NCBI RefSeq assembly: GCF_022919835.1
Contig: NZ_CP095074.1
Coordinates: 4,814,001-4,878,000 of the forward strand
DNA length: 64,000 nt
Origin: Halobacillus shinanisalinarum
GTDB taxonomy: Bacteria > Bacillota > Bacilli > Bacillales > Halobacillaceae
Direction: 5' to 3'
Positions 3,390-50,657 of this stretch are shown here, one piece after another. A program made the position numbers and the translations under genes. Within the stretch, counting starts at the first letter, position 1; every line of letters starts with the position of its first letter. The notes under the pieces are model-generated. The model was not told the origin of the DNA and searched no databases. It saw nothing but the letters and a program-made list of their open reading frames with translations.

Positions 3390-3874
3390 ATGGAATTCAT
3401 TAAAAGAACGTTAGACAAGGTGTTAGGAACAGTCTGTGTAGGACTGTTCGCTTTCCTTGTCACCCTGGTTACCTGGCAGGTATTTACAAGGTTTGTCTTA
3501 AACCATCCCAGTGTAATTTCTGAGGAGTTGGCGAAGTATTGCTTTGTATGGCTTGTCCTGTTCGGTGCGGCTTTTGTATTCGGAGAAAACGGGCACATGG
3601 CGATACATTTCATTAAAGATAAGCTGCCTAACAGGATCAAAATGGGGGTCGAAGTGTTCATAGAGATTGTAAGTATTGTATTTGTACTGCTGGCTCTCAT
3701 ACTCGGGGCTACCTGGCTACTGAGATTGCCTGGAATCAAATGTCGGCTTCTCTGTCGATTCCGGTAGGGTATTTATATGCCGGATTACCTGTAAGCGGGG
3801 CGTTTATGATGTTTTACTGCATCTATAATATTTATTTGGTTTTAAAGAAAGGAAAACCAATAGAGCAACTATAG
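3390..3874 (+). pseudogene. dctQ: TRAP transporter small permease DctQ, frameshifted
   Basis: The first part (3390 to about 3705) encodes the DctQ N-terminus with membrane segments and the typical EELAKYCFVWLVLFGAA region. The frame then breaks, and the rest of DctQ (EIAWNQMSASLSIPVGYLYAGLP and a final membrane segment) continues in the -1 frame to TAG at 3872-3874. Lengthening the G4 run at 3705-3708 by one base restores a protein of about 161 residues, the normal family length. As written, translation ends at 3767 after 125 residues. DctQ and DctM form the membrane complex. The break may be an assembly error or a true mutation. Confidence 0.85.
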
Positions 3875-3902
3875 TTACTCGTTACAGGAGGGGGAAATAG
3901 AT

Positions 3903-5213
3903 ATGGATGCTGCCATACTAGTTGCATTGATTCTAGGCATAGGTGTTACTTTGTTTTTAATTATCGGCGTACCGATAAGTGTCAGCGTGGGTATTGCTTC
4001 GGTGCTGGCTATTTTCACCATCGTTGATTTTGATGATGGATTATTAACTTCGGCTCAGCGGATGTTCACAGGAATGAACTCGTTTACATTGTTAGCCATT
4101 CCTTTTTTTGTACTAGCTGGAGGCATTATGAACAACGGGGGAATTGCTGCGAGATTAGTCAACTGTGCCAAGGTCCTGAGCGGCCGGATGCCTGGTTCTC
4201 TTGCTCATACGAATACATTTGCGAACATGCTGTTTGGTTCTTTAAGCGGATCAGCTGTGGCAGCTGCCGCCGCGGTCGGAAGTACGATGTCTCCGATGCA
4301 GGAAAAGGAAGGGTACAAAAGGGAATTTAGTGCCGCAGTAAATATAGGATCGGCACCAACGGGAATGCTTATTCCGCCGAGCAACATCATGATTGTTTAT
4401 TCCCTCGTCAGCGGCGGAACTTCCATAGCCGCTTTATTCGTGGCAGGGTACCTTCCAGGCATTTTATGGGGACTGGGCTGTATATTGGTTGCTCTTGTGA
4501 TCGCTAAGAAGAGAGGGTATAAAAGCCAGATCAATCTTACATTCAAACAGAAGCTGTTTGTATTTATTGATGCAGTGCCAAGCTTACTCCTTGTAGTGAT
4601 TGTCATCGGCGGTATTATTGGCGGAGTTTTCACTGCGACGGAGGCTTCAGCAATTGCTGTAGTGTACGCACTGTTGCTTTCCTTTATCTACCGTACGATT
4701 AAATGGAAAGACCTGCCTGCCATTTTGCTTGATGCAACGAGGACAACTTCCATTGTGCTGTTTTTAATTGGTGTTTCTTCGATTATGTCATGGGTGATGT
4801 CCTTTACAAACATCCCGGGTCTAATAGCTGACACGCTGCTGTCACTTACAGGAAATATGATTATTATTCTATTAATCATGAATCTCGTATTACTTCTTAT
4901 TGGAACGTTTATGGACCCGACCCCGGCAATTCTCATTTTCACACCGATCTTCCTTCCGATCGCTCAAAGTTTTGGAATGGACCCGGTGCATTTTGGAATC
5001 ATTATGGTATTTAACTTAAGCATTGGAACGATAACACCTCCTGTAGGACCTGTTATTTTCGTAGGATCAAGAGTAGCAGGACTGCCGATTGAAGGGATTG
5101 TAAGACCATTGCTGCCGTTTTTTGCGATGGCCGTCGTCGTATTACTAATTGTCGTGTACGTACCTTCTGTTTCCTTGCTGCTGCCGGAGGCGTTCAACTT
5201 AATATCCAGATAA
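3903..5213 (+). CDS. dctM: TRAP transporter large permease DctM
   Basis: This 436-residue, highly hydrophobic protein has the DctM layout of about 12 membrane segments. Typical signatures are NMLFGSLSGSAVAAAAAVGS near residue 100, IPPSNIMIVYS and GTITPPVGPVIFVGSRVAG near the C-terminus. It is the ion-coupled transport subunit working with DctP and DctQ to import an organic acid. An AGGAGGGGG site precedes the start. Full family length and intact. Confidence 0.94.
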   Translation: MDAAILVALILGIGVTLFLIIGVPISVSVGIASVLAIFTIVDFDDGLLTSAQRMFTGMNSFTLLAIPFFVLAGGIMNNGGIAARLVNCAKVLSGRMPGSLAHTNTFANMLFGSLSGSAVAAAAAVGSTMSPMQEKEGYKREFSAAVNIGSAPTGMLIPPSNIMIVYSLVSGGTSIAALFVAGYLPGILWGLGCILVALVIAKKRGYKSQINLTFKQKLFVFIDAVPSLLLVVIVIGGIIGGVFTATEASAIAVVYALLLSFIYRTIKWKDLPAILLDATRTTSIVLFLIGVSSIMSWVMSFTNIPGLIADTLLSLTGNMIIILLIMNLVLLLIGTFMDPTPAILIFTPIFLPIAQSFGMDPVHFGIIMVFNLSIGTITPPVGPVIFVGSRVAGLPIEGIVRPLLPFFAMAVVVLLIVVYVPSVSLLLPEAFNLISR

Positions 5214-5228
5214 AAAGGAGGAAAAAGG

Positions 5229-6233
5229 ATGGAAACAATTGTATATGAAGGACCTCAACAGGTCGCTTATCGAGAAAAGAATTCACCGCAAGCTGCCGGG
5301 GGAGAGGTGCTGATTAAAACGTCTCACGTAGGAATCTGTGGAAGTGATCTTAACATTTATGCAGGAGCTCATCCTCGTGCCGAAGCCCCTTTAGTCTTAG
5401 GGCATGAATTTTCCGGAACGATCGTTGAAGGGCATTCTGTTCTTCCTCAAGGGACTCGTGTTACTGTGAATCCTTTATTGAAATGCGGGACCTGCCTTCC
5501 ATGTACAACCGGCCAAAGCCACGTATGTAAAAACTTAAAGCTGATCGGCATCGATTGTGACGGAGGTATGGGAGCTTACGTCACAGTTCCTCAAGAAAAC
5601 GTAGTTGCCCTCCCTGATAGTGTCTCGCTCGCAGCAGGAGCATTGATCGAACCCATAGCTGTAGCCGTTCACGCTGTAAGACAAGGTGGGTATGTACCGG
5701 GAGATGGAATCGTTATTTTTGGCGCTGGTACGATTGGCCTGTGTGTCGCTCAGACGTTACGAAGCTACGGTGCTGCTGATGTGACAGTGGTCGAACCAAA
5801 TGAGCATCGGTTACAAAAAGCAGCTGAGCTTGGCTTTACAACGATTCATGCGGAAAAGGATGACATAAAAGCAGAAGTGCTGAATGCAACGAATGGTGCT
5901 GGTGCTGATTTTGTATTTGACTGTGCCGGTCACCCTGCCGTCCTAAACGCATTAACAGATATCGTGAAGGTAAGAGGCCGGATCATTATTATAGCTGCTT
6001 ATAAAAAGCCGGCCGAATTAAATCTGCTGCAAGGGATGTTTAAAGAGCTGTCCATTCAATTTGTCAGGGTCTACACAGATAAAGATTTTCAAATAGCTGC
6101 AGATTTGCTGGCGAAACATCCGGAGTTTGAAAGAATCATCACAAATGTTCTTCGCCCTGAGGAAGCTGAACGAGGGTTTCAGTTACTAACTTCCAATATG
6201 GATGCGGTTAAAGTAATGTATAAATTTAAGTAA
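5229..6233 (+). CDS. Zinc-dependent medium-chain (MDR) alcohol dehydrogenase
   Basis: The 334-residue protein shows all MDR alcohol dehydrogenase hallmarks: the catalytic zinc region GICGSDLN with GHEFSG, the four-cysteine structural zinc loop (CGTCLPCTTGQSHVC, about residues 90-105) and the NAD-binding GAGTIG motif near residue 170. Relatives include threonine, sorbitol, L-gulonate 5- and L-galactonate 5-dehydrogenases (RspB/LgoD type). Given its neighbours, oxidation of a sugar acid to a keto-acid is the likely role; the exact substrate is an inference. AAAAGGAGG precedes the start; it is tightly spaced after dctM. Confidence 0.85.
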   Translation: METIVYEGPQQVAYREKNSPQAAGGEVLIKTSHVGICGSDLNIYAGAHPRAEAPLVLGHEFSGTIVEGHSVLPQGTRVTVNPLLKCGTCLPCTTGQSHVCKNLKLIGIDCDGGMGAYVTVPQENVVALPDSVSLAAGALIEPIAVAVHAVRQGGYVPGDGIVIFGAGTIGLCVAQTLRSYGAADVTVVEPNEHRLQKAAELGFTTIHAEKDDIKAEVLNATNGAGADFVFDCAGHPAVLNALTDIVKVRGRIIIIAAYKKPAELNLLQGMFKELSIQFVRVYTDKDFQIAADLLAKHPEFERIITNVLRPEEAERGFQLLTSNMDAVKVMYKFK

Positions 6234-6246
6234 GGGAGCTCTAAAA

Positions 6247-7002
6247 ATGAATCAGCTATTTGACTTAACCGGAAAGGTCGCTGTCGTTACCGGAGGAAAT
6301 CGAGGACTAGGCAAGGATATAGCGGCGGGTCTGGCGGAATCAGGAGCAGATGTAGTTGTGGTGGCAAGAAACGTAAAGCCTGAAGTCGTTAAAGAGCTTC
6401 ATCGTTATGGAGTTAATGCTAAAGGGATTAATTTCGATCTTCAGCACACTGAACAATTTGATGATTTGGTTTCTCAAATTATTGAAGAATTTGGGAAAGT
6501 GGACATTCTCGTTAACAATGCAGGCGTACAGAAACGTCACCCTAGTGTGGATTTTCCAAAAGAAGACTGGGACTTTGTCATGAACATTAATACTAATGCT
6601 GTCTTTCTGCTCTGTCAGAAGTTTGGACGCAGGATGATTCAGCAAGGCAGCGGAAAAATTATCAATATGGCTTCCATGCTGTCGTTCCATGGAGGGTTTA
6701 CAGTTCCCGCTTATGCGGCGAGTAAAGGAGCAGTTATGCAATTTACGAAATCTCTGGCCAATGAGTGGGCGGAACAAGGTGTTAACGTAAATGCCATTGC
6801 TCCTGGATATATGGCCACAGAAATGAATACAGCATTGATAGATGATGAAACAAGGAATAAGGAAATTTTAAACCGCATCCCTGCTAAGAGATGGGGAGAA
6901 CCTAAAGACCTTCGCGGAGCCGCTGTTTTCCTGGCTTCGCCTGCTTCGGATTACATTCACGGATTTACACTAGCCGTTGATGGAGGATATTTAGGTCGAT
7001 AA
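6247..7002 (+). CDS. kduD: SDR oxidoreductase, 2-keto-3-deoxygluconate dehydrogenase type (KduD)
   Basis: This 251-residue short-chain dehydrogenase has the NAD-binding motif TGGNRGLG at residues 16-23, NNAG near residue 90 and the active-site pair Y-A-A-S-K around residues 157-161. Length and N-terminus (LTGKVAVVTGG) fit KduD/gluconate 5-dehydrogenases. KduD reduces 2,5-diketo-3-deoxygluconate to KDG after KduI in unsaturated uronate degradation. The adjacent kduI supports this over a generic gluconate 5-dehydrogenase. Intact. Confidence 0.82.
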   Translation: MNQLFDLTGKVAVVTGGNRGLGKDIAAGLAESGADVVVVARNVKPEVVKELHRYGVNAKGINFDLQHTEQFDDLVSQIIEEFGKVDILVNNAGVQKRHPSVDFPKEDWDFVMNINTNAVFLLCQKFGRRMIQQGSGKIINMASMLSFHGGFTVPAYAASKGAVMQFTKSLANEWAEQGVNVNAIAPGYMATEMNTALIDDETRNKEILNRIPAKRWGEPKDLRGAAVFLASPASDYIHGFTLAVDGGYLGR

Positions 7003-7023
7003 ATAATAGGAAGTATGAAAAGA

Positions 7024-7855
7024 ATGGAAATAAGGTACTCAGCGAACCCAGCTGATTTTAATCACTATGATAATGAAAGAATTCGTCAGGATTTTCTTGT
7101 ACAGGACTATTTAAACAAGGAGAGATCTCGATGGTCTACTCCCATTATGACCGATTAATTATAGGAGGGGCTGTTCCGGTAGCGGAGCCGCTTACCCTCG
7201 AAGACCAAGACACATTAAAAACAAACTTTTTCCTTGAGAGAAGGGAGATAGGCGTTGTAAATATTTCTTCTGTGTCTGGAAGAGTCACTGTGGATAACGA
7301 AACCTACGAATTACAGGAGCGGGATTGTTTATACATAGGGAAGGGAAAAGAGGAAGTAACGCTTGAAAGTACGGACCCTGCTTCCCCGGCTTCTTTCTAT
7401 TTAGTATCTGCAACGGCTCATAAAGAATACCAGTGCAGAAACTGGCTTTAAAAGATACCGTTCAGACACATTTAGGATCAGACAGCGAGTCCAACAAACG
7501 CCACATCTGCAAATATATTTATGAGGACGGCATAAAAAGCTGCCAATTAATGCTTGGTATGACGTTCCTTGCACCAAACAATATGTGGAATACAATGCCT
7601 CCTCACGTGCACGATCGTCGAATGGAAGCGTATCTATATTTTGATATGGATGAGAATTCTAAAGTGTTTCATTTTATGGGAGAGCCAGACAATACTAGAA
7701 AAATCGTAGTGAAAAACCAGCAGGCCGTTCTCTCCCCTCCCTGGTCGATTCACTCAGGCGTAGGGACAAACAATTATACGTTTATTTGGGCAATGGCCGG
7801 AGAGAACTATACATTTACAGATATGGACCATGTCGACATGGAACGAATTAAATAG
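7024..7855 (+). pseudogene. kduI: 5-keto-4-deoxyuronate isomerase KduI, two frameshifts
   Basis: The gene is recognisable over its whole length in three frames. ATG at 7024 starts MEIRYSANPADFNHYD; the middle part (MVYSHYDRLIIGGAVPV) is in the frame beginning 7131; the C-terminal part (LKDTVQTHLGSDSESNKRHI, then PPHVHDRRMEAY with the zinc-binding HxH...E, and SIHSGVG) is in the frame ending at 7855. Both breaks are one missing base, at a GG (7119-7120) and a CC (7430-7431); adding one G and one C restores about 277 residues. KduI converts 4-deoxy-5-keto-uronate to 2,5-diketo-3-deoxygluconate. As written it is non-functional; assembly error is possible. Confidence 0.85.
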
Positions 7856-7862
7856 GATTGCT

Positions 7863-7886
7863 GTAAGCCTCTTTTTAGAGGCTTAC
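7863..7886 (+). terminator. Hairpin between kduI and rpiA
   Basis: A perfect 10-bp stem (7863-7872 with 7877-7886) with a TTTT loop lies just after kduI. No real T-run follows, so it may attenuate or protect the upstream mRNA rather than terminate fully. The next gene has its own strong AGGAGG site. Confidence 0.45.
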
Positions 7887-7907
7887 TTCATTTAGAGGAG
7901 GGAGAGG

Positions 7908-8569
7908 GTGAATAATGATGAAGAAAAGGCGCTTGCTGCGCAGCAGGCAGTTCAGTTAATCGACGACGGTAAGTGGGTCTCGGCTCAGGAAGTACGGTTA
8001 CAATCATGCTTGAGGTACTCGGTAAACGTGTAAAGGAAGGAATGAATATTCAAGGAGTTCCAACATCGAAGAAAACCGAACGGCTGGGGCGTACCCTTGG
8101 TATTCCATTAACACCAATAAATGAAAACACCTGTATCGATGTCGCTATAGACGGTGCAGATGAAATAGCTGAAGGTCAACTGGTAAAAGGCGGAGGTGGA
8201 TCGCTCGTCCGGGAGAAAATTATCGATGCTTATGCTGGTCGACTCATAATCATTGCAGATTCAACTAAGGTTGTACCACAGCTTGGGGCTTTTCCACTTC
8301 CTGTAGAAGTTGTTCCCTTTGGATGGCAGATGACAGCGGCTGTCCTAGAGTCCCTGGGCTGCCGTGTCCAATTACGAACGCAGCAAAACGAAATCTTTTT
8401 ATCAGATAATGGCAATTATATTGTGGATTGTCACTTCACAAGCATTTCTGATCCCGCAAAGCTGCATGCTCAAATTAATCAAATTGCCGGTGTAGTGGAA
8501 AACGGCTTATTTATAAACATGGCCACCGACATTTTCGTAGGAAACCGTATTATCAAAGGAGGGAATTGA
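7908..8569 (+). pseudogene. rpiA: Ribose-5-phosphate isomerase A, frameshifted
   Basis: A GTG start at 7908, six bases after AGGAGG (7896-7901), opens a frame with the RpiA N-terminus (EKALAAQQAVQLIDDG). At about 7971 one base is missing, and the protein continues in the -1 frame with the RpiA hallmarks VGLGSGSTVT, DGADEI and KGGGGSLVREKI to the stop at 8569. The repaired product would be about 220 residues, normal for RpiA. It interconverts ribose 5-phosphate and ribulose 5-phosphate. An extra rpiA within a uronate cluster suggests a link to pentose or KDG breakdown. Confidence 0.82.
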
Positions 8570-9459
8570 ATGAATATCGTTACGATTGGGGATGCCCTGG
8601 CTGTTTTTGAACCTTTCACGAAAGGGCCGATGAGATTCGCTCATCAGTTCGAAAAAAAGGTGGGAGGTGCAGGTTAAATGTTTTGATTGGAGGCTCAAGG
8701 CTGAGACTCAAGATGGGGTGGATCAGCAGACTGGGTCGTGATGAATTCGGGCGATCGATCAGAAATTTTGCCAGAGGTGAAGGCGTGGATACGTCATAAG
8801 TCCAGCTTCAAGATGGGACACCCACTTCCCTCGGCTTTAAGGAAATGATGGAGGACGGCAGTGTGCGCACCTTTTATTACAGGGAGAACTCGCCTACCTT
8901 GTCGATGATACCGGAAGACTTAGATGAAACCTACATTAAACAGGCTGACATTTTACATATTACAGGAATTTTCCCTGCAATTGATGACAGTAACATTCCG
9001 GTGTTAAAAGAAGCCGTCCGGCTCGCCAAGAAAAATGGTGTGAAGGTTTCGTTTGATCCTAATATTCGATTGAAATTATGGAATAAAACAAAGGCACGAG
9101 AAACGCTTGCCCCGCTGCTGGCCGAAGTGGATATTCTTCTGGGAGAAAAGGAGCCGGAAAAAATAATCGCCCGGACACGTGCCTTAGGTATCCCCTTCGT
9201 TGCATTAAAACGTGGAGAGCTTGGTTCCATCGGTTATGATCCTTTTGAAGAAGCAACGGCAGAACCTGTACCTGCAGCTAAAGTTGTAGATACCGTTGGA
9301 GCGGGCGATGGGTTTAACGCAGGAGTGCTCTACGGGATTCTTCAAGGGTGGCCATTAAAGAAGGTGCTGCATTTTGGAAATAAGATCGGTTCCATGGTCG
9401 TCGGAGTTAAAGGTGATAGCGAAGGGCTTCCTTATTATGAAGAAGTTCAGGAAGTGTAG
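8570..9459 (+). pseudogene. kdgK: 2-keto-3-deoxygluconate kinase (PfkB family), frameshift plus stop codon
   Basis: The PfkB-type sugar kinase is readable from ATG 8570 (MNIVTIGDALAVFEPF). One base is missing at GG 8672-8673; adding it gives GGAGLNVLIG or, with an A, the family-typical GGAELNV. An in-frame TAA at 8797-8799 then interrupts VDTS-VQLQDG, and the frame continues to the C-terminal signature VDTVGAGDGFNAG, which holds the catalytic Asp. A segment near LLGEKEPEKI looks shorter than in relatives. The enzyme phosphorylates KDG to KDPG for cleavage by KdgA. The substitution-type stop argues for real inactivation. Confidence 0.82.
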
Positions 9460-9498
9460 GAGAAAAAAGTCATCGACCGATAGAAAGGAATGTGACGA

Positions 9499-10110
9499 AT
9501 GAATAAACTGCATACTTTACAGATGATTCATCAGGAAAAATTGATTGCGGTAATTCGAGGAGATACACAGGAAGAGGCTGAAATGATAACAGAAGGGTCC
9601 TATTCAGGCGGCATAACGATTATGGAGCTTACCTATACCGTTCCTGGAGCTACGTAAGTAATTGAAAGGCTCTCCCAGCAAAAAGACAAAAGCTGGATCA
9701 TTGGAGCTGGTACCGTCCTTGACGAAGTTACAGCGCGAATGGCGATTGAAGCAGGAGCCCAATTTATTGTAGGTCCAAACTTCGTTCCTGAGGTAGCCAA
9801 ACTGTGCAACCGATATCAGATTGTTTATATACCTGGCTGCCAAACCGCTAAAGAAGTCATTGCGGCTATGGAGGCTGGCGCAGATATCGTTAAGTTATTT
9901 CCTGGAAATATCATCACACCAGGCGGCCTAAAGGCAATGAAAGGACCGCTTCCTCAAGCAAATCTTATGCCTTCCGGCGGGGTAAGTGTAGCTAATGTAC
10001 ACGAATGGCTGGATAATGGAGCAGTTGCTATAAGTGTAGGCTGCAGCCTATATCAATCAAGTCAAAAAGAAGTGACCAGTGCTTCTAAAGAGATCACTCA
10101 TCAGTTATAA
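9499..10110 (+). pseudogene. kdgA: KDPG aldolase with in-frame stop codon
   Basis: The frame from ATG 9499 encodes a KDPG/KHG aldolase: IAVIRGDT, the catalytic Glu in IMELTYT, IGAGTVLD, and the Schiff-base Lys in ADIVKLFPG, ending SGGVSVANVHEWLDNGA. A TAA codon at 9655-9657, about residue 53, interrupts it; no frameshift is present, so one substitution would restore 203 codons. A re-start at 9739 would lack the catalytic Glu. The enzyme cleaves 2-keto-3-deoxy-6-phosphogluconate to pyruvate and glyceraldehyde 3-phosphate, the last step of the pathway encoded here. Confidence 0.85.
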
Positions 10111-24658: not shown

Positions 24659-25330
24659 TTATTTAGGATCAAACATTACATGCAAAACTTTACCAACTAT
24701 CCTAGCGTCTTCGTCATTTATAATGATTGGATCATAAGCAGAATTCTCAGGTAACAAAATATGTTGACCACCATCGGTTATCTTGACCCTTTTCAAGGTC
24801 GCTTCATGTCCATTCACATTAACGATTGCGATGTCTCCATTTTCCACTTGTGGTGTCAGTTTAACTACTACCCTATCTCCCTCGTGAATTCGGGCGCCTA
24901 TCATGGAATCCCCTTTTACATTTAAAACAAAAAGTTCGTGTGGACTTTTATATTCCCATAAGTTAGGTAAGTCAATATAAGTCTCTATGTTCTCTTCAGC
25001 AAAAACCGGCTTTCCGGCAGCAATCGAACCTAATACTGGAACCCTTAAACTGGTAGGGGGTGTCTCACCATTAGACTTAGGTACTTCTGTTTCAGTCATT
25101 TCAGCGTTCTTTGATTCCTCCATAATAATATGCAAAAACTCCATAACATCTATATCATATAAAGCGGCCATATCTTGTAACACTGGTATTGAAGGTTTTC
25201 TATCTCCGCGTTCCCACATATTATAAGCACTTCTTGATACACCTAATAAATCTGCTACTTCTTGTTGAGATCTTTTACTGTTAGTTTTTCTAAGACTTTT
25301 TATTTTTTCGTGTAATTTCATATCATTCAA
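24659..25330 (-). CDS. CI-like phage repressor with S24 peptidase domain
   Basis: This 223-residue protein has an N-terminal XRE helix-turn-helix (QQEVADLLGVSRSAYNMWERGDRKPS, about residues 20-45) and a LexA/CI-type C-terminal domain. The self-cleavage Ala-Gly lies in SIAAGKPV (about 103), the catalytic Ser in VKGDSMIG (about 142) and the catalytic Lys in ATLKRV (about 178). It should maintain lysogeny and be inactivated after RecA/SOS activation. Its gene is divergent from the Cro-like gene across an operator cluster. An AGAGAGG site precedes ATG 25330. Confidence 0.93.
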   Translation of the reverse strand: MNDMKLHEKIKSLRKTNSKRSQQEVADLLGVSRSAYNMWERGDRKPSIPVLQDMAALYDIDVMEFLHIIMEESKNAEMTETEVPKSNGETPPTSLRVPVLGSIAAGKPVFAEENIETYIDLPNLWEYKSPHELFVLNVKGDSMIGARIHEGDRVVVKLTPQVENGDIAIVNVNGHEATLKRVKITDGGQHILLPENSAYDPIIINDEDARIVGKVLHVMFDPK

Positions 25331-47186: not shown

Positions 47187-48401
47187 ATGACGAAGCGCAA
47201 AGAACTATTTAAGACAGTAAAACAAAAGAATCTATTAAAATTAGATCTCCAACATTTTGGTGATAAGACGTTATATGAGTTAAAGCAAAACATGACCACG
47301 GTTGGTCAGCAATTGCAAAAGACAGAAGATGCACTGGCATCAGCTGCTATTGATACAGGCAAATCAACTGAGGACATTCAAGCCCTGCAAAAATCACGTG
47401 ATGATTTAAAAATGCGGTTTGACGTAATCAAGAATCAGCACGATCAGCTTGAGGAAGAACAACGTGCAAAGTTCGCGAAACAGGATAACCTTCAAGCGAT
47501 CGACGACCCAACTGAACAAAAAGTAAAAGCAAAAGCAGAACTAATTCGTGCGACGATGCGACAAAAGCCTATCTCAGGTGATGTAAAAGCGGCTCTAGGT
47601 GATGAGGGAACGACAAACGGAGATAAGTTCTTACCTAAAACAGTTTCTTCAGATATTCTTACTGAGCCTTATGTGAAGAACCAACTACGCGGGGTTTCAG
47701 ACTTTACGCAAATCACAAACCTTGAGATTCCTAAACTGAATTTCTCTTTAGATGATGATGACTTTATCGCAGATAAGGAAACGGCGAAGGAGCTTAAAGC
47801 AACAGGGGATGTCGTAACGTTTGGTCGTCATAAGTTTAAAGTGTTTGCTGGTATTTCAGAAACCGTCCTAAACGGTACTCACACAAACCTAGTCTCACAC
47901 GTGGATCGTGCCCTATCTTCTGGTGTAGCTGCTAAAGAAAAGAAAGTCGCTTTTGCTGCAACTCCTAAGGTTGGGGAAGAGCACATGTCTTTCTACTCTA
48001 CGCAGAACGCCATTAAGAAAGTGGCAGGCGAAAATATGTACAAGGCGATTAAAAATGCTATTGCTGATCTTCATGAGGATTACCGTGAAACGGCGAAAAT
48101 CGTTATGCGGTTCCAGGACTACTCAGACATGATTGAGGTCTTGGCCAACAATAACTCAACACTCTACACAGCTCAACCTGAGCAAGTATTAGGGAAGCCG
48201 GTTATTTTCTCTGATTCAGCTGTAAATCCTGTTGTGGGTAGTTTCATGTATTCTCATTTTAACTATGATCTAGGTATGCTTTTCGATCGTGATAAAGATG
48301 TTAAAACAGGTATTGAGCAGTTTGTCATTACAGCATGGATGGATCACCAGATCAAACTCAAATCAGCCTTTCGTATTGCTGAAGTTACTGCGACACCCTA
48401 A
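47187..48401 (+). CDS. Major capsid protein (HK97 fold)
   Basis: The 404-residue protein starts at ATG 47187 behind GGGAGG. Residues 1-110 form the coiled-coil delta (scaffold) domain (YELKQNMTTVGQQLQKTEDAL). The mature capsid follows (AALGDEGTTNGDKFLPKTVSSDIL; FDRDKDVKTGIEQFVITAWMDHQIKLKSAFRIAEV). The prohead protease should remove the delta domain. The gene ends ACA CCC TAA, and an FN3 domain continues in the +1 frame, suggesting a programmed +1 frameshift at CCC-T giving a minor, extended capsid protein of about 492 residues (see next entry). Confidence 0.95.
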   Translation: MTKRKELFKTVKQKNLLKLDLQHFGDKTLYELKQNMTTVGQQLQKTEDALASAAIDTGKSTEDIQALQKSRDDLKMRFDVIKNQHDQLEEEQRAKFAKQDNLQAIDDPTEQKVKAKAELIRATMRQKPISGDVKAALGDEGTTNGDKFLPKTVSSDILTEPYVKNQLRGVSDFTQITNLEIPKLNFSLDDDDFIADKETAKELKATGDVVTFGRHKFKVFAGISETVLNGTHTNLVSHVDRALSSGVAAKEKKVAFAATPKVGEEHMSFYSTQNAIKKVAGENMYKAIKNAIADLHEDYRETAKIVMRFQDYSDMIEVLANNNSTLYTAQPEQVLGKPVIFSDSAVNPVVGSFMYSHFNYDLGMLFDRDKDVKTGIEQFVITAWMDHQIKLKSAFRIAEVTATP

Positions 48402-48666
48402 TGCGCCCTCTGGCTTAACAGCAACCAATGTGACAGACACAAGTCTAACGCTTAATTGGGATGCTGTTTCGTACCCAGAGGGAATTCAACACTATGAAGT
48501 CTTCCGTGATGGGGAATTCTTAGATACAAGAGTAGGAACAAGTTTTGCGGATAGTGGATTGACTGCCTCCACTGATTATAGTTACCAGGTTAAAGCGGTA
48601 GCTAATAATGGAGCGGCGTCTGAATTAAGTGAGCCACTAGTTGTTACAACTTCAGCAGCAGTATAA
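48397..48666 (+). CDS. FN3 extension of the capsid protein in the +1 frame
   Basis: From CCT at 48397 the +1 frame encodes NAPSGLTATNVTDTSLTLNW through YSYQVKAVANNGAASELSEPLVVTT, a complete fibronectin type III domain of about 88 residues. No start codon and ribosome site suit it. The upstream frame ends exactly at CCC TAA, where a Pro tRNA can slip from CCC to CCT. The same design is published for Listeria phage PSA, and Ig/FN3-like additions by frameshifting are known for phage capsids. Likely role: decoration of the head surface and sugar binding. Confidence 0.8.
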   Translation, partial: PNAPSGLTATNVTDTSLTLNWDAVSYPEGIQHYEVFRDGEFLDTRVGTSFADSGLTASTDYSYQVKAVANNGAASELSEPLVVTTSAAV

Positions 48667-48680
48667 GGAGGGATTGATTC

Positions 48681-48989
48681 ATGCTAACAGCAGAGCAGTT
48701 CCTACCAGAGATTAAAAACTGGCTAAGAATAGATGGAAGTGAGGATGATCAAATCCTCACTTCTTTATTCTTATCTGCGAAAGAATTTCTAAAAGGGGCG
48801 GGTATTCCTGAACCGGATCCTCCGTCTGAAAGGTATAAGATTGCTATCCTTCTGATGGTCTCAAATGGATATGAGAATCGATCACCTGTTGTAGTTGGAA
48901 GCAGTGCTTCAGATCTCCCATTTAGCTTACAAACCTTTATTTTGCAATTAAAAGCTGAGGCACTGCCAAGCGAGAGTGATGTAACGTGA
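48681..48989 (+). CDS. Head-tail connector protein (gp6-like)
   Basis: The 102-residue protein begins FLPEIKNWLRIDGSEDDQILTSLFLSAKEFL, the signature of the HK97 gp6/SPP1 gp15-type adaptor that binds beneath the portal. AGGAGGG ribosome site. GTGA overlap with the next gene. Confidence 0.9.
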   Translation: MLTAEQFLPEIKNWLRIDGSEDDQILTSLFLSAKEFLKGAGIPEPDPPSERYKIAILLMVSNGYENRSPVVVGSSASDLPFSLQTFILQLKAEALPSESDVT

Positions 48990-50069: not shown

Positions 50070-50657
50070 ATGGCATCATCAATCGTTGGTTTAAAAGATT
50101 TAGTTTATGCACCTTTACTCGATGATTCAGCATCGGGCGCAACATACGGAGAAGTAAAACCTTTGGCGCCTGCAATCACAGCTTCTACGGAGACAGCGGA
50201 AGAAACAGCAACCCAGTACGCTGATAACGGTCCTATTGAAGTTGTTTCGCAAATCGGCGAGACGACAATAACAATCACAGCTTCTGCACTTGAACAGGCC
50301 GTATTGGCTGAAATCCTCGGTCAAGAAGTTAGAAAAGGTGTCATTGTTTATAAACAGACGGCCACAGCACCTTATATCGCAATCGGTTTTAAAGGGACTA
50401 AAGCAAACGGTAAAAATCGTAATGTTTGGTTACTGAAAGGTCGTTTTGCCACACCGTCTGACGAGTGGAATACAAAAGCAGATTCCCCTGAGTTCTCAAA
50501 CCAAGAAATTACAGCTACTTTCATTCGTCGCGATTTTGATGAAGCGTTCAAGATTACGGGGGATGAGGAAGTAACAGAATTTGATCAGTATAAAGGAACC
50601 TTCTTTGATCAAGTCTTTGATCCGGCTCAGCTTGATGTTGCGCCAACTACGCCCTAA
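50070..50657 (+). CDS. Major tail protein
   Basis: The 195-residue protein has the tail-tube pattern of Firmicutes siphoviruses (SIVGLKDLVYAPLLDD; ATQYADNGPIEVVSQIGETTITITASAL; EWNTKADSPEFSNQEITATFIRRDF). AGGAGG precedes the ATG. Like the capsid gene it ends in CCC TAA, and a strong hairpin (50668-50686) lies 10 bases downstream; the +1 frame stays open to 50769 but encodes no recognisable domain. It assembles the tail tube around the tape measure. Confidence 0.92.
   Translation: MASSIVGLKDLVYAPLLDDSASGATYGEVKPLAPAITASTETAEETATQYADNGPIEVVSQIGETTITITASALEQAVLAEILGQEVRKGVIVYKQTATAPYIAIGFKGTKANGKNRNVWLLKGRFATPSDEWNTKADSPEFSNQEITATFIRRDFDEAFKITGDEEVTEFDQYKGTFFDQVFDPAQLDVAPTTP

Follow-up and report, generated by a model that had tools for sequence, protein, structure and literature searches.

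The major capsid protein gene of a prophage in Halobacillus shinanisalinarum ends in CCC TAA, and the +1 frame at this stop encodes an FN3 domain that lacks a start codon of its own. This raises the question of whether and how the domain is produced. The locus lies in a stretch of 64,000 nt (contig NZ_CP095074.1, positions 4,814,001 to 4,878,000), here called the window, to which all positions given without a locus name refer. The host genome is one contig of 4.887 Mb, in which the capsid region is present as a single copy. In another part of the window (3390-10110), several chromosomal genes for sugar-acid metabolism and a transporter gene appear interrupted in frame, either as pseudogenes or by assembly indels.

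The capsid gene end and the FN3 frame behind it

The following features were considered:

47187..48401, + strand: gene for the HK97-type major capsid protein, read in the zero frame, 404 aa (sequence; Pfam Phage_capsid, phrog_10, 7rwz_B)
48396..48401, + strand: slip site CCC_UAA, with CCC in the P site and the stop in the A site, and with putative +1 re-pairing to CCU (site seen in the sequence)
48400..48666, + strand: FN3 domain of 88 aa and its stop codon, in the +1 frame (Pfam fn3; dN < dS)
48406..48482, + strand: stem-loop downstream of the slip site, with basal arms at 48406-48413 and 48475-48482 and a likely role as stimulator (folding, synonymous permutation)
50070..50657, + strand: gene for the major tail protein of this prophage, ending ACG CCC TAA, with CCC at 50652-50654 (sequence)

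The capsid gene product matches Pfam Phage_capsid (PF05065; 1.2e-12, 48.3 bits against a cut-off of 24.2) and the major head protein family phrog_10 (7.2e-56), and has a solved relative in 7rwz_B (4.8e-103). In the zero frame the gene ends GCG ACA CCC TAA TGC GCC (C-terminus of the protein VTATP; CCC at 48396-48398, TAA at 48399-48401), which confirms the ACA CCC TAA end reported in the first-pass annotation. From AAT at 48400, the +1 frame runs for 88 residues, starting with NAPSG, before it reaches the stop at 48664-48666, and it matches Pfam fn3 (PF00041; 1.9e-12, 47.6 bits against a cut-off of 25) over profile positions 2-83 of 84. According to the ORF listing the start for this frame is GTG at 48289, well within the capsid gene, while ATG at 48401 belongs to the third frame. 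No start or ribosome-binding site that would open the FN3 frame at the domain was found in the window sequence and the ORF list, so that the description of a complete FN3 domain without an own start holds. The next gene downstream starts at 48681. The CCC TAA of the tail protein gene (50652-50657) is followed by a +1 frame of 37 codons in which no domain was recognised and which contains overlapping hairpins; this second site may be either a vestige or due to chance.

We consider it very likely that +1 slippage at the CCC-stop of the capsid gene yields FN3-extended subunits mixed with plain ones. The most likely interpretation of the window is thus a programmed +1 frameshift that would make a minor, FN3-bearing capsid protein, by a mechanism which we infer with strong comparative evidence. 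Most ribosomes would terminate at TAA, so that the capsid protein is released without an extension. When CCC occupies the P site and the stop codon the A site, with the stem-loop ahead, some peptidyl-tRNA-Pro (UGG) may slip by one base onto CCU, and the ribosomes concerned would then read on into the FN3 frame, so that the particles would contain a mixture of plain and FN3-extended subunits. The slip is a putative event and its frequency is likewise conjectural. The FN3 domain would be displayed on the outer head surface, on a minority of the subunits, and by analogy it may have a role in weak cell-envelope binding, as proposed for the SPP1 domain.

The closest precedent is gp17.1* of phage SPP1, in which, according to the accessible text of PMC6316719, a +1 shift at CCCUAA extends the tail tube protein gp17.1 by an 87-residue FN3 domain. 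There, too, the site is CCC UAA at the end of a structural gene, the shift is +1 and the added domain is FN3. The window site is therefore the SPP1 gp17.1* cassette on a different protein: the FN3 domain is on the major capsid protein here and on the tail tube there, and the 3' stem-loop described for the window site is a computational result. The same text gives a 3:1 ratio for the SPP1 tail, so that a long form can be more than a small fraction, and the small fraction of capsomers assumed in the first-pass annotation is not required. That annotation had also referred to slippage of Listeria phage PSA on CCC before a stop codon. As far as the accessible text of PMC5009743 goes, +1 shifts on CCC extend both Cps (capsid) and Tsh (tail) of PSA; the description fits the tail protein, which has CCC_UGA, but not the capsid protein, with its slip site ACA_CCC_UCC, a pseudoknot and no stop. 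Thus the window, with CCC followed by TAA, does not match the Cps kind, in which CCC is followed by a sense codon. In phage T3, as reported in the same text, a frameshift gives the major coat protein a second form with a C-terminal extension; T3 belongs with other cases of -1 shifts that give Ig-like extensions, whereas here the shift is +1.

Capsid ends and RNA structure in related phages

For the comparison with related phages we used 33 loci from genome contigs, the best 80 of 140 loci from viral contigs and the window copy. These 114 loci contain 101 distinct capsid ends, the window included. In 53 of the 101 ends the gene has CCC as its final sense codon, followed by TAA in 50, TGA in two and TAG in one. 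A +1 extension of 18-95 codons was present at all 53 CCC-stop ends, compared to extensions of at least 18 codons at 7 of the 48 other ends; the corresponding Fisher value of 2e-21 overstates the independence of the data because many of the phages are close kin. Thus, with the best 80 of 140 viral loci included, CCC-stop plus +1 extension recurs in 52 further distinct ends, which come from separate assemblies. The codon preceding CCC was ACN at 49 of the 53 sites. In the same set the +1 frame was intact over at least 60 codons at 36 CCC-stop ends, and ten capsid ends are followed by 60 or more open codons in the -1 frame. A capsid-FN3 fusion in frame was seen in none of the 114 loci (best 80 of 140 viral loci included): the longest in-frame tail beyond the aligned capsid end comprised 26 residues, and therefore the domain was not seen as an in-frame fusion. 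In relatives with the domain in cis, its first residues adjoin the slip site directly. Further, dN was lower than dS in all seven evaluable pairs (an eighth was saturated), which indicates purifying selection on the +1 frame.

Short extensions (18 to 53 codons) were found at 17 of the 53 CCC-stop ends in this set. That of L103 is an interrupted whole FN3 frame, and five others (L059, L061, L062, L063 and L065) are rich in Pro and Glu. In Paenibacillus larvae phages, a Pro/Glu-rich +1 extension of the capsid gene (L115:4121-4294) is annotated as a separate hypothetical protein. In three other Paenibacillus loci (L025, L026 and L027) the same domain of about 93 residues is found in the -1 frame after both the capsid and the tail protein.

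The stem-loop starts 7 nt after CCC. Folding of positions 48390-48500 gave -35.2 kcal/mol (z -3.82), and when synonymous codons were permuted across the FN3 frame of the window, none of 200 trials was as stable (z -4.06). At 25 sites with a whole domain the same permutation resulted in a mean z of -3.29, with 23 of 25 below -2, while the controls (36 each) had mean values of -0.59 within the capsid gene and -0.78 in the second half of the FN3 frame, with none and one below -2, respectively. Dinucleotide shuffling of 90-nt windows gave z below -2 at 23 of the 25 whole-domain sites versus 2 of 102 coding controls; z was likewise below -2 at 13 of the 43 ends other than CCC and at 4 of the 15 tag sites. 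Folds of 60-nt windows were not unusual. The basal stem was not recovered by RNAalifold on the 25 sites, and hand inspection revealed that its pairs slide by one base between relatives. The synonymous-permutation test was therefore used. By this test the stem-loop is more stable than the protein sequence demands, and the structure is a likely candidate for a stimulator of slippage. CCC is a rare codon (9.8% of the Pro codons in 37 window ORFs), and one tRNA-Pro, with the anticodon UGG, was found in the host genome (150 of 306 candidates scored, 55 tRNA matches, clusters retrieved).

Together, the widely shared CCC-stop, the absence of in-frame fusions among the loci compared, the selection on the +1 frame and a stem-loop exceeding the coding need support the programmed +1 slippage that the first-pass annotation had predicted to add FN3 to the capsid protein. 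Three other explanations were weighed against it. At one hand, one surplus base in the assembly could have split a true gene which is a direct in-frame capsid-FN3 fusion, and the apparently interrupted chromosomal genes at 3.4-10 kb imply that the assembly may contain indels. However, an extra base is unlikely because the relatives have the same CCC-stop, in 52 ends from separate assemblies, and the predicted fusion was not seen in the 114 loci (best 80 of 140 viral loci included); such an error is highly improbable. Alternatively, the FN3 frame could be a decayed remnant which is never translated. This is very unlikely: the missing start codon near the domain and the interrupted frame of the relative L103 would be in line with decay, but purifying selection acts on the +1 frame, which is intact in the 36 long CCC-stop ends, the RNA structure is selected beyond the demands of the protein, and masses in the accessible text on phi12-type phages, given below, fit +1 products. 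Finally, reinitiation or an internal start could yield FN3 as a protein of its own, without fusion, as might be expected from some relatives in which the partner half of the domain is an own gene with an own ribosome-binding site. Against this speaks that the window has no start or ribosome-binding site for the FN3 frame at the domain, and that in the cis relatives the domain begins directly after the slip site; we regard a separate FN3 protein as scarcely credible.

Tags and partner genes in the relatives

In addition to whole domains, many relatives of the window phage have a short tag only, which corresponds to half of an FN3 domain, to half of a Big_2 domain or to a peptide of 18 residues. 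In L003, L013 and L022, the +1 tag comprises FN3 strands 1-2, and the remainder of the domain begins a separate gene directly after the capsid gene, with an own ribosome-binding site. The two parts do not overlap in profile coordinates (L003, fn3: tag 2-21, partner 31-83; L009, Big_2: tag 3-30, partner 35-67). In other phages the 18-residue tag has an IG.A.IG core, and the product of the next gene starts with a shared module of 30 residues and continues as collagen-like or other sequence. With a strict pattern, this IG-type partner and the tag were found together in 12 of 16 distinct rows; near-variants of the partner are present in three more (L007, L172 and L173), and L169 has the partner without the tag. 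The 86-residue partner of half-Big_2 tags at L009:6578-6838 contains strands C-G followed by a new first half at its C-terminus, and therefore could in principle chain head to tail.

In phages with a tagged capsid protein, a tag of the same kind is also found behind a CCC-stop at the end of the gene for the major tail protein; the tail protein of L022 has no tag. A first search for pairs of extensions of all types was swamped by low-complexity and GC-rich ORFs and was replaced by a search for CCC-only pairs. Among 248 loci scanned, 16 distinct ones had two CCC-stop sites, and the two tags were alike in 15 of them (the exception is L234). When ORF ends were taken as capsid and tail protein by their spacing (2.1-2.3 kb), matching tag pairs (score of at least 38, reached by 1 of 1,700 shuffles) were found in 26 of 34 distinct loci bearing a partner. 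The loci without a match were L262, L328, L347 and L349, which have no pair of candidate ends; L317, which has CCC TAA on both genes but lost its capsid tag to a filter; L333, in which the tail tag is present and the capsid tag is not clear; and L324 and L325, each on a contig of some 140 kb, in which a relative of the partner is present and no matching tag pair was found. In Enterococcus loci, a similar tag pair is located in the -1 frame.

When the two halves of L022 were joined, with the stop read as Ser, they were modelled as an FN3 domain (pLDDT 90.8) with strands 1-2 from the tag and strands 3-7 from the partner, matching the FN3 domain of chitinase A1 (1k85) with a TM of 0.80. Since the alignment used contained six intact FN3 domains, the model speaks for a fit of the halves but not for their binding. 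The partner half alone was modelled with five strands (pLDDT 80.8, pTM 0.58). According to the profiles and the model, tag and partner thus appear to be complementary halves of one domain which fit together, and they may dock by fold complementation. In chaperone-usher pili, a second protein contributes the strands that an incomplete Ig-like fold is missing (donor-strand complementation). In comparison, here a frameshift would supply a two-strand hairpin to head and tail, to which the partner would bind. No description of such split-domain docking was found in the literature searched, in which few subscription papers were included, and a text search of PMC12409344 for the terms sought gave no hits.

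Published masses and the possible role of the tags

The Staphylococcus phages phi12, 47 and 3A (Triavirus) have a capsid protein related to that of the window phage (7rwz_B), and in them the +1 frame after CCC encodes an extension for both capsid and tail protein. They differ from the window in the site, TTA_CCC_AGC_TAA, and in the extension, which is a half-domain tag of 20 residues, the remainder being a separate gene (gp38 in phi12). In phi12 both structural genes end TTA CCC AGC TAA, each with its 20-residue tag in the +1 frame. The gene after that of the tail protein matches phrog_341, the family of the L003 partner, and this common membership is why we take the phi12 partner as FN3; Pfam fn3 does not reach it.

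The phi12 masses were calculated before we knew the MALDI values and after we had seen the gel table. The plain forms gave 23,294.7 Da (tail protein), 15,871.2 Da (partner without Met) and 30,374.8 Da (mature capsid protein), and the +1 forms 25,204.7 Da (tail protein) and 32,310 Da (capsid protein). In the accessible text of PMC8569155, a phi12 gel has two capsid bands of 29.5 and 32.6 kDa (33.0 in a SaPIbov5 sample), ESI detected a mass of 30,374 together with unidentified minor peaks, and gp38 is among the major bands. The accessible text of PMC5923470 lists 15,871, 23,295, 25,208 and 30,373 as MALDI signals common to six related phages, with no protein assigned to 25,208 in the accessible rows of its Table 3. 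The virion peak at 25,208 Da fits the +1 tail protein, predicted at 25,205, and the unexplained second capsid band of 32.6 kDa fits the +1 capsid protein, predicted at 32.3. For phage 47 the +1 tail protein was also calculated as 25,204.7 Da, and no product of 24.0-26.5 kDa is encoded by any of the 25 annotated genes that lie wholly in its first 24 kb; the published masses of two phage 47 proteins exceed theory by 3-4 Da (PMC5923470, same text). The phage 3A tail protein was calculated as 25,245 Da in the extended form, not 25,208, and as 23,335 Da in the plain form, which is off the common published value of 23,295. The common MALDI signals in this text do not include the mass of 32,310 calculated for the extended phi12 capsid protein. 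Neither of the two sources, in its accessible parts, describes the tag as a frameshift product or reports a junction-spanning peptide, and the word "frameshift" is absent from PMC8569155. The fit of the published phi12-type masses to +1 products is thus strong but indirect.

Based on these observations, we consider it probable that frameshifting at the ends of structural genes is a general display port, which adds either a whole domain or the same kind of tag on head and tail for docking of one partner, with a -1 version in Enterococcus phages and with phrog_341 as the partner family. The partner would dock by completing the FN3 or Big_2 fold with the hairpin, or by binding the IG peptide. Alternatively, the tags and partners of the relatives could be no docking halves, in which case the partner would be a usual protein of tail or head, and the tags would be relics or chance peptides. 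In favour of this, phrog_341 is annotated as "major tail protein", the L022 partner half may fold by itself, given its five modelled strands, the L022 tail protein is untagged, the partner relative of L324 and L325 comes without a matching tag pair, and the IG-type partner of L169 without a tag. However, the tags on the two upstream genes are alike in most partner-bearing loci and in 15 of the 16 with two CCC-stop sites, the halves abut without overlap in profile coordinates, and the partner is a major band in phi12 preparations according to the accessible text. We therefore regard the absence of docking as rather unlikely. Further, the phrog_341 members L116:6411-6866 and L003:4299-4994 begin within an FN3-like domain and are located behind structural genes with tags, and the label of this family is probably wrong.

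In summary, the window contains a recoding cassette of the SPP1 type on the major capsid protein, which is widespread and probably aided by RNA structure, and in the relatives the use of split-domain tags, set on both head and tail and served by a single partner, looks like the new element. If the display-port interpretation is true, docking tags set by frameshifting are present on the head and tail of well-studied phages, the mass data without assignment in the accessible phi12-type work would be accounted for, and phrog_341 would be misnamed. These phages would then possess a natural two-part display system.
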